Below are positions 37,133 through 43,493 of a stretch of DNA of 64,000 bases, in pieces. The stretch covers positions 1 to 64,000 of the forward strand of contig JAGQGU010000010.1 of the NCBI GenBank assembly GCA_020432165.1. The letters run 5' to 3'. Under the pieces are notes generated by a model, which saw only the letters and a program-made list of their open reading frames with translations, was not told where the DNA came from and made no database searches. The translations under genes were made by a program, and so were the position numbers. This DNA is from Thermomicrobiales bacterium. Its GTDB lineage: Bacteria > Chloroflexota > Chloroflexia > Thermomicrobiales > UBA6265. Numbering within the stretch: position 1 is the first letter of the stretch; each line of letters starts with the position of its first letter.

Positions 37133-37168
37133 CCGCCCTGCACACCGGTGTGCAGGGCGGTTTGCTTT
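37133..37168 (+). terminator. Terminator after the tiny ORF (shared with parB 3' end)
   Basis: The 28-base sequence CCGCCCTGCACACC/GGTGTGCAGGGCGG is a perfect self-complementary hairpin (37133-37160), followed by TTTGCTTT. It overlaps the parB stop codon on the other strand. Confidence 0.85.
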
Positions 37169-38162
37169 AATCCTCATCTTGCAGTATTGCATCCAGCGCA
37201 TCACGCAGTGCGATCAGCGTTTCCCGCGAGTCGCTGCTCAGCGTCTCTGTTCGCGTCAGCGATTTTGCCAGCGCCGAGACCTCTTTCGTCAAGCGCTGGT
37301 CATCCACTCTCGGCACGCTCAGCAGTTTCGCCAACTCGCTTGCCTGCCGCGCCTGCACTGCTTGCAGCAATGTTCGTGTCTGTGATGACAGTGCCGCCAA
37401 ATCGGCCGGTTCCAGCAGCTCGTAAAGCCGTTGAACATCCTCCTGCGCATCGGTGTGGCTATGGCTCTCGGAGTAGGTCTTCAACGCCTGCGCTATCTTC
37501 ATCGCTGTCGCGGCCTGTATGCCGCGCTCCACCATCAGCGCCCGTAACGCCTCCTGCTGTGCAGCAGGTAGTCCCTGTAACGCTCGACTCTGTTTCTCGC
37601 TCAACTTGCCGCTCTGGATATCCTCCTGCGCGGCCTCTGGTAGCTTCTCTGTGCCCAGAAGTTGGAAGAGGCGACTACGCTTGATCCCAACCGCCGCCGC
37701 AACCTCTTCCCAGGGTGCATCATCCATCTGCTCTCGCAGGGCGCGGAGCGCCGCCGCCCGATCGATCGCATTGAGATCATCGCGAACGATGTTTTCCATC
37801 AGTTGCTGCACAAGTCGCCGCTGCGCTGGAACATCGCGGATGATAGCCGGAATTTCGGCCTTGCCCGCAAGCTTGCTGGCACGGAAACGGCGCTCGCCGT
37901 GCACGATCACATAGATATCGCGATCGGCATCGTATCGCACCACAATCGGCTGCAGCACTCCTTCGGCCTTGATCGCATCGGCCAGCTCCATGAGACGGTC
38001 AGCGTCGAAATGTCGGCGAGGTTGCTCTGGATCGGGTTCGATCCTCACCAGCTCGATCACTTTGGCCTCGGCCAGATCACTGACACCGGTCGCCTGTGGG
38101 CGCGTATCCGTAAAGAGGTCATCCACGCTGAAGCGGCGATTTCGTCTTGGTTTATCGGTCAT
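37167..38162 (-). CDS. parB: ParB/Spo0J chromosome partition protein
   Basis: This is a 331-residue DNA-binding CTPase-type clamp that loads at parS. The N-terminal domain shows VRIEPDPEQPRRHFD, the box with GERRFRASKLAGKAEIPA and the ENIVRDDLNAIDRAAAL motif. The helix-turn-helix follows near residue 150 (WEEVAAAVGIKRSRLFQLLG) and a C-terminal dimer domain closes the chain. ATG 38162 lies inside the parA end (11-bp overlap); a longer open frame to 38270 has no family similarity. I found no obvious 16-bp parS palindrome in the window by eye. Confidence 0.92.
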   Translation of the reverse strand: MTDKPRRNRRFSVDDLFTDTRPQATGVSDLAEAKVIELVRIEPDPEQPRRHFDADRLMELADAIKAEGVLQPIVVRYDADRDIYVIVHGERRFRASKLAGKAEIPAIIRDVPAQRRLVQQLMENIVRDDLNAIDRAAALRALREQMDDAPWEEVAAAVGIKRSRLFQLLGTEKLPEAAQEDIQSGKLSEKQSRALQGLPAAQQEALRALMVERGIQAATAMKIAQALKTYSESHSHTDAQEDVQRLYELLEPADLAALSSQTRTLLQAVQARQASELAKLLSVPRVDDQRLTKEVSALAKSLTRTETLSSDSRETLIALRDALDAILQDED

Positions 38163-38925
38163 CGTTGCGCTCTTCCAGCCAGGCACCAACATCGCGATAG
38201 GCAGCCGCGACATTCGATTTCGGCATGTATTGCAGCACACTCGTGCGTTCGGCAGTGCTCTCGGCACCACGGACGCTCAGCGGGATACTCGGCAGCAATG
38301 GTAACTGCGGGAACTGCTCTTCCAGTTGCACCAGCATATCCTGTGCCAGGCGACTGCTGTGGTGCACCTTGGTTGGCAGGAAACCAACAACCTTAAGATC
38401 GGGATTAAGGCGGCTGATCTTGCGGATCGTCTCGAAGAGTCGCTTCAGCACCATGAGGGATAGTGGATGTGGTTCGATAGGGATCACCAGCTCGTCGATG
38501 GCGACAAGGATATTGATACTGATGATATTCAGCGCCGGCGGGGAATCGATGAGCACATAGTCGTACGCGCCAAGATCAGCCGATTTCAGGCGATGATCAA
38601 GCTGCCGTTCGCGCTCCAGCACATTCAGCAATTCCAGCTCTGCCGCCGCCAGATCGGGATGACTGGGGACGATATCGATACCCGCTATTGTGGTTGGCTG
38701 GATCACATCGGCGATGGTCACATCCTCATCCAGAAGCAGATCGTAGACGGATTGCTGCAGGTGGGCGACATCGGTACCGATGGCCATACTCAGGCTCGCC
38801 TGTGGATCGAGATCGATCGTGAGCACACGCTGACCTCGTTCTGCCAATGCCGCTGCCACATTCAGCGTACTGGTGGTTTTGGCAGTGCCACCTTTTTGGT
38901 TGAAGAAGGCGATGATGCGGGTCAT
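38152..38925 (-). CDS. parA: ParA/Soj partition ATPase (with parB)
   Basis: The 257-residue MinD/ParA-type ATPase drives segregation of ParB-bound origins over the nucleoid. The deviant Walker A is KGGTAKTTSTLN, with Ala where most ParA proteins have Gly (KGGTGKTT). The DLDPQASLSMA motif, the Walker B region YVLIDSPPALN and the FLPTKVHHSSR segment are typical. It precedes parB with an 11-bp overlap. The start at 38925 puts the Walker A at residue 11, as usual. Confidence 0.94.
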   Translation of the reverse strand: MTRIIAFFNQKGGTAKTTSTLNVAAALAERGQRVLTIDLDPQASLSMAIGTDVAHLQQSVYDLLLDEDVTIADVIQPTTIAGIDIVPSHPDLAAAELELLNVLERERQLDHRLKSADLGAYDYVLIDSPPALNIISINILVAIDELVIPIEPHPLSLMVLKRLFETIRKISRLNPDLKVVGFLPTKVHHSSRLAQDMLVQLEEQFPQLPLLPSIPLSVRGAESTAERTSVLQYMPKSNVAAAYRDVGAWLEERNDDR

Positions 38926-38990
38926 GAGCGGGCGAAAGTCCTCGGGTGGCGCGAACGGTCCATAACCCTGTAATGATACCGAAGACAGAA

Positions 38991-39017
38991 ACGGGAGGCC
39001 CGATACGGACCTCCCGT
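38991..39017 (-). terminator. Terminator of the small paralogue operon
   Basis: Read on the minus strand, ACGGGAGG pairs with CCTCCCGT around an 11-nt loop and is followed by TTCTGTCTTC. It lies 24 bp after the last small gene and could also end readings from the other side. Confidence 0.7.
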
Positions 39018-39041
39018 CTTCTATCTCAACTCTCGGTGCAG

Positions 39042-39296
39042 CTATGCGCTGTGCACGCGCTCGCCTGCAGAAATCAACAGATTGCCGATACTATCGCGGA
39101 GCGTGTTCAGTGTGCGAACCATCATTGGTTCTGAGGTTTTCTTGATAGCGAGGCTCTTGCCGGAGACCATACCGTGAATCATTGCCTCGCGATCAGCGAT
39201 TCTGGCGCGACTCATCATCTCCATGCGGCGAAGTTCCGGGCTCGTCTCTGTTTCGATCTGTGTGTTAAAGATTGTGCCAAACTGCACTGGAATCAT
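39042..39296 (-). CDS. Small protein of unknown family, paralogue 2 (84 residues)
   Basis: I do not recognise this family. The first 40 residues align with the upstream neighbour (39329-39496): both start MIP.VF..., both have a Q..ET-S--RRMEM-SRA core, and both have a polar helix after it. Here the core is ETSPELRRMEMMSRARIADR. A longer C-terminal helix follows (SEPMMVRTLNTLRDSIGNLL). The ATG at 39296 has an AGGAT-type site, 32 bp after the stop of the paralogue. It is probably cytosolic, with no signal peptide or TM helix. A hairpin terminator ends the unit. Confidence 0.7.
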   Translation of the reverse strand: MIPVQFGTIFNTQIETETSPELRRMEMMSRARIADREAMIHGMVSGKSLAIKKTSEPMMVRTLNTLRDSIGNLLISAGERVHSA

Positions 39297-39328
39297 GGTT
39301 ATCCTGGATTTTCTAGCCGACTTTATCG

Positions 39329-39496
39329 TTATCGGGAGACACGATTCTTGCGAAAGATTCGTGGCGTCAGCGAAACGATAACGGCGTTCAGTTCATCCCG
39401 GTGGGCGCGGCTGAACATTTCCATGCGGCGAACATCGGAACGGGTTTCTGGCTGAGCCTGGGCGTCAATGGAGAAGGTGAATACGGTTGGAATCAT
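39329..39496 (-). CDS. Small protein of unknown family, paralogue 1 (55 residues)
   Basis: This 55-residue protein starts MIPTVFTFSIDAQAQ and shares ETRSDVRRMEMFSRAHRDE with its neighbour. The tail SLTPRIFRKNRVSR is basic. ATG 39496 has a strong GGAAAGAGG ribosome-binding site; the longer open frame to 39604 runs through the leader hairpins and is not coding. It is the first gene of a two-gene operon with a consensus promoter, and its leader forms three hairpins. The function is unknown. Confidence 0.75.
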   Translation of the reverse strand: MIPTVFTFSIDAQAQPETRSDVRRMEMFSRAHRDELNAVIVSLTPRIFRKNRVSR

Positions 39497-39521
39497 GATG
39501 GACCTCTTTCCTTTTTCGTGA

Positions 39522-39590
39522 TCGCACTTCGTTGTGCGACAGGTATATGGATTCATATACCTGTGGTGATGAGTACTGCCTATCACCACA
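39522..39590 (-). ncRNA. Structured 5' leader with three consecutive hairpins
   Basis: Going with transcription: TGTGGTGAT pairs with ATCACCACA around 11 nt (39562-39590); CAGGTATATG-(4)-CATATACCTG forms a perfect 10-bp stem (39540-39563); TCGCAC-(6)-GTGCGA follows (39522-39539). The predicted transcript start (about 39589) falls at the foot of the first stem, and the ribosome-binding site follows the third. The first two stems overlap by two bases at 39562-39563, so they could switch. A cis-regulatory element is likely; the class is not one I know. Confidence 0.55.
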
Positions 39591-39595
39591 CCCAC

Positions 39596-39624
39596 ATAGT
39601 ACACCTATAGATATCTCGTGTCAA
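39596..39624 (-). promoter_or_regulatory. Consensus promoter of the small paralogue operon
   Basis: On the minus strand, TTGACA (39619-39624), a 17-bp spacer and TACTAT (39596-39601). Directly upstream of the -35 are two tandem GCATATCG octamers (39625-39640 on the plus strand). Confidence 0.8.
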
Positions 39625-39801
39625 GCATATCGGCATATCGTGATAATGGTTTAACAATTGACCGGTGAGTGGGGAGAATCGGACGTGCATCCGTCGTACG
39701 GACACATACCTTAACGTCGGCAATTGGGAATTGGTTACGGCGGTAGTGACGCATTTGCCGTTGATATCAAAAACCTGGGAGGATGTCGTGTGGCCTGGGT
39801 C

Positions 39802-40605
39802 TTATGAGACCGCTCGTTTGATCAGGGGATAGGGGATGATGCGATTCACCGCAATTGCGGCACCGATGAACATCCATCCAATCAGAGCGTCCAGCCAATA
39901 ATGGTTGCCGGTGATGATCACCACATAAGTGATGAGTGATGCCATAAAGAGGACGAAGAGAATCCGCCATCGCACTGATGGCATAAGCATGCTCACGCAG
40001 ATTGCGACGTAGGTTGTCCACCCGACATGCATGCTTGGCATCGCGGCGTAGCGATTCGCCTGTACCAGGCCACTTTCACTGAAGTAGTTCGGACCATACA
40101 CGCGCATGGTGTCCACGAAATCCCAGCCGTAGTCGGCCAGAAATCGCGGTGGTGCCAACGGATAGATGAGGTACATCGGTGTCACCAGCAGCATGCTGAT
40201 GAAGAAGCCCCGCCGGAGGTAGCGGAATCGCACAGGCGCAAAGAACGCCAGCACGCTGAATCCGCCGATGACCCACCACATGTAGTAGGCGTAAAGGTAG
40301 TTGAAAGAGCGGATGTACCAATCACCGTGGTCCAGCGCCCAGGCTTGCCAGTCCAGTTCGAAGAAGAGATGGAGTCGTTCTTCGAACTGGATCACATCTT
40401 TGGCGTGATCGAAGGCGATAGCCGGATCGTCTGGAATGCCAAAGCGACGCACGGTCTTATAGATCTGAAACGCGATGAAGACTAGCGCACCCTGACTGGA
40501 TGCCCACAGGAACCTCTTCAGCGCGGTCGTTCGATCGCGAGGAATGGATGGCAGCTCATCGATAGCTGGTGTCAGCCAGCCATTCCCGCTTTCGCGGTGA
40601 ATCAT
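39802..40605 (-). CDS. PAP2-superfamily membrane phosphatase/phosphotransferase (AUR1/Ipt1-like)
   Basis: The 267-residue protein has about six TM segments. The PAP2 motifs are in AAMPSMHVGWTTY (C2) and ITGNHYWLDALIGW (C3), preceded by the AUR1-like stretch YLIYPLAPPRFL. Members dephosphorylate lipid phosphates or transfer phospho-headgroups outside the membrane, for example phosphoinositol transfer. It overlaps the upstream PNPOx-like gene by 1 bp (TAATG) and thus lies in the guaB operon. A role in lipid or polyprenyl-phosphate turnover is likely. The 196 bp between it and the small-operon promoter contain no gene that I can support. Confidence 0.88.
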   Translation of the reverse strand: MIHRESGNGWLTPAIDELPSIPRDRTTALKRFLWASSQGALVFIAFQIYKTVRRFGIPDDPAIAFDHAKDVIQFEERLHLFFELDWQAWALDHGDWYIRSFNYLYAYYMWWVIGGFSVLAFFAPVRFRYLRRGFFISMLLVTPMYLIYPLAPPRFLADYGWDFVDTMRVYGPNYFSESGLVQANRYAAMPSMHVGWTTYVAICVSMLMPSVRWRILFVLFMASLITYVVIITGNHYWLDALIGWMFIGAAIAVNRIIPYPLIKRAVS

Positions 40606-41034: not shown

Positions 41035-43355
<2,321 letters not shown>

Positions 43356-43493
43356 TGGTGATCCGGTAACTACTGCGGAGTGCCGAACGCTGTGACTGCG
43401 GCACCGGTTCCGCATATTCTACAGCAAGATTCGCCAGGGTCAATCACCGAACGAGGGCAATCTTCGCGTAATTATCGGACCGGATACCTGTTG

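Follow-up and report, generated by a model that had tools for sequence, protein, structure and literature searches.

The window analysed here, a stretch of 64,000 nucleotides from a contig of an uncultured member of the Chloroflexota (order Thermomicrobiales), carries beside parAB a separately controlled short run of genes for small arginine-rich helical proteins. An earlier note on this DNA had described a complete unit next to parAB, made of a promoter, a hairpin-rich leader, two genes and a terminator, and all of these parts were found on the minus strand, with parA and then parB beyond them (Table 1). The two genes, ORF1 and ORF2, are separated by a gap of 32 bases and each is preceded by a Shine-Dalgarno-like sequence. 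The ORF1 frame is open across the entire leader (39497-39604), with an in-frame ATG within the second hairpin; the later start at 39496 is favoured because a strong Shine-Dalgarno precedes it. The hairpin past ORF2 has equivalents after the array in both congeners that carry it (z = -8.18 in G003 and -5.30 in G001), in line with the terminator proposed earlier; a consensus terminator scan of the unit returned none by the scan's own rule. On the plus strand, two weak promoter-like sites (39618-39647 and 39651-39679, each 9/12) bear on the question of an antisense RNA, the scan having yielded three promoter-like sites in all against 1.2 ± 1.2 expected. A search of the leader region against Rfam gave three matches, all of them under the gathering scores.

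Table 1. Features of the array and of the genes that flank it, in window coordinates
Feature	Positions	Strand	Remark
PAP2_3 family phosphatase (PF14378), upstream neighbour outside the unit	39802..40605	-	Pfam match
Promoter/operator block over the -35 box	39610..39645	-	direct repeat CGATATGC-CGATATGC and inverted repeat GATAT-N12-ATATC
Sigma-70-type promoter TTGACA-17-TACTAT	39596..39624	-	10/12 consensus matches; TTGACA 39624-39619, 17-base spacer, TACTAT 39601-39596
Leader, three consecutive hairpins	39521..39589	-	39589-39563, 39562-39541, 39540-39521; last hexaloop AACGAA
ORF1, 55 aa	39329..39496	-	arginine 16.4%; N-terminal core only (RRMEM..SRAHRDE)
ORF2, 84 aa	39042..39296	-	N-terminal core and C-terminal module LRDSIGNLLISAGERVHSA
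Terminator-like hairpin	38986..39023	-	z = -5.41; ~20 bases past the ORF2 stop
parA, downstream neighbour outside the unit	38152..38925	-
parB, outside the unit	37167..38162	-	named from sequence; start picked by eye

The paralogy of the two proteins is borne out by a local alignment score of 73, which none of 5000 shuffles reached (23.8 ± 4.5). The likeness is confined to the N-terminal 40-50 residues, and ORF1 is best read as being, in effect, the N-terminal half of ORF2 with the C-terminal half absent. Both proteins are basic (pI 9.7 and 11.5), arginine makes up 9.5% of ORF2, and neither sequence, judged by eye, has a long hydrophobic stretch. Neither ORF1 nor ORF2 matches Pfam or NCBIfam, and PADLOC and PHROGs gave no match of note.

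Conservation of the array in the genus

Relatives of ORF2 were sought in 61 genomes, including three congeners (genus UBA6265; G001, G002 and G003), and were found in G001 (E = 1.0e-11) and G003 (E = 2.5e-11). In both of them the array has kept its neighbours, in the order guaB-PPOX-PAP2-[array]-parA-parB, so that this synteny holds in two of the three congeners searched. Only two array loci were found in the named genome collection, DJVD01000015.1 (Chloroflexi bacterium UBA6265) and JAMLHR010000001.1 (Thermomicrobiales bacterium ACE_NR_CHLO14). The array thus encodes conserved proteins, at the same locus in three of the four genomes of the genus and in one to three copies. The description of a fixed pair did not hold: against the two copies of the window, G003 has three in tandem (two short and one long), G001 a single long one, and the fourth genome, G002 (72% complete), has no array at parA, which is preceded there by 439 bases. 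A profile search found no full array protein elsewhere in G002, and a match in G003 (C50, E = 0.009) looks spurious when read. In G025, from another genus, guaB, PPOX, PAP2 and parA are arranged alike and some 100 bases separate PAP2 from parA, with no array, which implies that the array was either gained in the genus UBA6265 or lost elsewhere; its absence from the locus in G002 and G025 also indicates that it is not essential.

In G003 a transposase-like insertion separates the array from parA. This transposase-like element (L022:8552-10223) has on either side a perfect 46-base copy of the terminator hairpin, as if it had inserted at the terminator and duplicated the hairpin.

Conservation of the reading frames in related genomes, the point on which the earlier note had set its own refuting test beforehand, is seen in the identities at codon positions 1, 2 and 3 of the three long-protein pairs (0.54/0.61/0.35, 0.59/0.67/0.43 and 0.56/0.59/0.39). 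At the level of sequence, this pattern is that of a protein under selection. It tells against a local, near-neutral cluster of small proteins with no selected function beyond the genus, a reading to which a copy number of 0-3 within the genus and a fast divergence, with the long proteins about 41% identical between species, would lend themselves. As the conserved promoter block, the kept synteny and a module that is common across the order speak against it as well, we regard such a cluster as quite improbable.

Of the 36 bases in the block over the -35 box, 34 are the same in G003, and 30 in G001, as in the window, which exceeds the conservation of the coding sequence and points to a regulator shared by these loci. 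The exact 13-mer GATATGCTTGACA, taken from this block, occurs once each in the window genome (G000), G001 and G003, always at the array, and not in G002. A genome-wide regulon under this block was considered and rejected, since exact copies are found only at the array and the one-mismatch matches are scattered and do not lie at other members of the family described below; one near-match, in G002 (L131), is a promoter-like site ahead of an unrelated gene.

The leader, about 100 bases long, is indeed rich in hairpins in the window, where its folding energy of -38 kcal/mol compares with -22.7 ± 3.3 for 200 dinucleotide shuffles (z = -4.63), but this does not extend to the genus as a whole: taken as a whole, the leaders of the congeners do not fold better than shuffles (z = -0.03 and +0.83), and the one hairpin predicted in each of the three species is that nearest to the start codon, with an AACGNN loop and a different stem in G003 and G001. 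In the G001 hairpin, several stem pairs are altered on both sides, as judged by eye. Such a hairpin ahead of the start codon, together with the arginine content and the high pI of the proteins, would suit RNA-binding regulators whose basic helices bind RNA, their own leader hairpin included, and RNA binding is reported for CcaF1, a DUF1127 protein, in the accessible part of one account (PMC12501420). The comparison is nevertheless confined to three leaders, two of which fold no better than shuffles, and the CACAACGNNGTG hairpin is not enriched genome-wide (38 matches in four genomes against 33 for the reversed pattern), so that we consider such RNA-binding regulators unlikely. One of the CACAACGNNGTG matches lies just ahead of another family gene (G003 C18).

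A wider family of arginine-rich small proteins

The earlier note had recognised no family for the two proteins. This stands as regards Pfam and NCBIfam, but the C-terminal helix of ORF2 defines a large family of arginine-rich proteins of 60-90 residues, with the signature R-x3-G-x2-L-[IVM]-x2-G. A profile of the six array proteins (A2) matched, through its C-terminal half, six small ORFs outside the array (E = 0.0015-0.041), one of them in the genome of the window, another in G002 and the remaining four in other genera; three further matches, with E up to 0.09, look spurious. The iterated profile reached 29 of the 61 genomes of the order at E <= 0.01. An alignment of 31 rows picked by eye (A4), from which several spurious-looking rows but also the likely-looking members L072, L077, L081, L088, L091, L105 and L111 were left out, shows an invariant R, G and G within, roughly, R-x3-G-x2-L-[IVM]-x2-G-x-R-[IL]-x-G. 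ORF2, aligned among these rows, carries R-x3-G-x2-[LF]-[IVM]-x2-G near its C-terminus; ORF1 does not, and its placement in the family therefore rests on its likeness to ORF2. Arginine averages 14.2% over the 31 rows, and a Shine-Dalgarno-like sequence stands ahead of nearly all of the 30 rows checked.

The independent test of membership is a jackknife, in which a profile of the 28 non-array rows was run against the 903 ORFs of at least 40 aa in the window: the ORF2 frame came first (E = 8.5e-7), with the runner-up at E = 0.15. With A4 as the query, 46 of the 61 Thermomicrobiales genomes, and 24 of the 28 of good quality, match at E <= 0.001, a count that is in part circular because the training rows are bound to match a profile built from them. 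There are up to 13 matches per genome; the family is strongly expanded in some genera, with 13 matches in G012 and 7 in G020. At the same threshold, the phylum as a whole gives matches in 14 of 151 genomes, an upper figure because several of these matches (e.g., L146, L147 and L149) look spurious when read; to judge by these profile matches, the family probably extends to other classes of Chloroflexota.

No family of Pfam, NCBIfam, PHROGs or PADLOC was matched by more than one of the 31 rows, scanned singly, and a profile search of the PDB gave nothing credible (best E = 0.35). The family was not found among the papers listed by literature searches on small proteins and small ORFs of Chloroflexota (Chloroflexi) and of Thermomicrobia or Thermomicrobiales, nor among those listed for UBA6265. 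In the case of the sORFdb work, which clusters only proteins of up to 50 aa, the accessible part of the paper makes no mention of 'Chloroflex' (PMC11796252). A phage or plasmid origin was also considered and rejected, with no relative among viral contigs, phages or plasmids. What lies at the locus is a genus-specific, promoter-conserved array within an undescribed Thermomicrobiales family of small proteins; the initial observation is borne out and proves broader than first described.

Seven clusters outside the genus, to judge by their coordinates, bring two or three members together within some 600 bases (G020 C24, G046 C131, G060 C426, G048 C309, G022 C219 with three members, G013 C121 and G013 C77). 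In the window's genus, the members of a second set (G000 C104, G003 C18 and G001 C273) come after penicillin-binding protein genes, with GNAT genes next in the two members scanned; each is preceded by an ORF of 39-41 codons that begins exactly at -97 and extends 23-29 bases into the member gene. In genus g6, an ORF of 61-65 codons starting at -161/-173 likewise runs into the 5' end of the family gene beside parA in two species (L037 and L038). The recurrence of clusters and of overlapping ORFs suggests that the family tends to form two-gene small-protein units like that of the window. A third set comes after DUF4097 genes, identified by Pfam, in three congeners, with an MFS gene next in the one scanned; the neighbourhood of the G002 member of this set looks alike by sequence.

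For one lineage of the family, there is some substance to the remark that the unit adjoins parAB. A member lies within 10 kb of a ParA orthologue on the same contig in 6 of 11 non-congeneric genomes, against a chance expectation of 0.23 of 11, which would give a Poisson P of ~2e-7 if the genomes were independent and overstates the significance because they are related. The 11 genomes are those, among 16 non-congeneric ones, with a full-length ParA orthologue; G006 and G017 (no match), G004 and G022 (distant ParA relatives only) and G011 (a truncated copy) were left out. In the two g6 genomes (G008 and G024) the member immediately precedes parA and is read in the same direction, as in the genus of the window, while in G012, G020, G021 and G014 it is 2.7-7.2 kb away.

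Short positively charged partner peptides, the N-terminus of ParB and the like, bind ParA, and the array shares with them a basic helix encoded beside parA. The small proteins might in this way bind the neighbouring ParA and tune chromosome partition. Unlike such peptides, however, the array is a separate transcription unit with a promoter and a terminator of its own; in G025, G013 and G002, parA has no family neighbour directly upstream; and most members are not near parA but elsewhere, by the DUF4097/MFS or penicillin-binding protein/GNAT genes. A ParA-linked regulator is thus distinctly unlikely in our view. A second ParA-family gene is found in the window at 42528-43415, just upstream of guaB and about 3.6 kb from parA, and the same pair of ParA-family genes lies on one contig in G003.

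Predicted structure and possible roles

AlphaFold2 models of the six array proteins predict two helices, at 20-48 and 58-83 in ORF2, with block pLDDT values of about 80 and 85; the ends and the linker are loose, and the confidence overall is modest (mean pLDDT 69, pTM 0.29). The R/E-rich core ahead of the module is visible in the 31-row alignment, and the N-terminal half aligns poorly across the family. On the helix, the residues conserved in the module gather on a single face (conservation moment p = 0.004), a value that is biased upward because the segments were picked by the motif itself. In its hydrophobic moment, the C-terminal helix does not exceed shuffles (median percentile 0.56, with 0 of 31 rows at or above 0.95), and a simple membrane-binding amphipathic helix is therefore unsupported and was rejected.

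The same result, together with the basic character of the proteins and the lack of any long hydrophobic stretch, argues against a module that is type I toxin-antitoxin-like or made up of membrane-active peptides and has a structured leader mRNA. The small size of the proteins, the highly structured leader of the window and the tandem duplication are reminiscent of such a module. Unlike the toxins of type I systems, the array, judged by eye, includes no hydrophobic membrane-spanning small protein; the structure of the leader as a whole is not conserved; and no notable PADLOC or PHROG match and no viral, phage or plasmid relative was found. We therefore hold such a module to be very improbable.

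The explanation that we put forward, tentatively and at somewhat less than an even chance, is that of a duplicated small-protein array encoding two-helix adaptors that would work like DUF1127 proteins, with which they are not homologous by profile; the function is one that we infer. A long protein would consist of a basic N-terminal helix, a loose linker and the conserved C-terminal helix, whose conserved face (R, G, L/I, G, I/L) may dock onto a partner protein, while the basic N-terminal helix may contact an acidic surface on a protein, a phospholipid or an RNA. Having the N-terminal helix only, short copies (ORF1 among them) might tune the long protein or compete with it, and the conserved block over the -35 box would be the target of a regulator that switches expression.

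DUF1127 proteins (PF06568; YjiS, CcaF1 and the Agrobacterium SDPs) are, like those of the present family, very small and arginine-rich, with two predicted helices and several paralogues per genome. According to the accessible part of PMC12501420, they are small proteins with ~14% arginine and two predicted helices, thought to bind sensor kinases or RNA. The excerpted text of PMC12218461 describes a Sinorhizobium DUF1127 gene that is controlled via an upstream ORF in its leader, and some genes of the family follow an overlapping small ORF in a similar manner. In contrast, the conserved motif and the phylum are different, and neither ORF1, ORF2 nor any of the 31 rows matches the PF06568 model: the likeness is an analogy only, and not membership. 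As no DUF1127 protein was found over the cut-off in 41 genomes either, the family could be a functional stand-in. The sensor-kinase modulators MgrB and SafA, as presented in the accessible part of PMC12501420, are small adaptors that work through contacts between proteins, a role that is putative here; unlike them, the array proteins have no long hydrophobic segment.

More broadly, the array may be a branch of a family of two-helix arginine-rich adaptors that spans the order and probably the phylum, has many paralogues per genome, recurs in mini-operons of tandem or overlapping genes and has one lineage associated with the chromosome-partition locus. The family would then be a Chloroflexota counterpart of DUF1127; we give this proposal a nearly even chance. 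In any case, an odd gene pair has proved to be the entry to a family that is matched in most of the searched Thermomicrobiales genomes and is in neither Pfam nor NCBIfam. Its members lie by parAB, penicillin-binding protein and transporter genes, and the family may thus matter for the envelope or the chromosome in a phylum with few genetic tools, for which the conserved module offers a ready annotation profile and a short list of residues to test. A small protein of G010 (L152:362-658), encoded after a PAP2 gene behind a long leader, has the IEELRRDAQVCRLA core without the two glycines and is a possible outlying relative.
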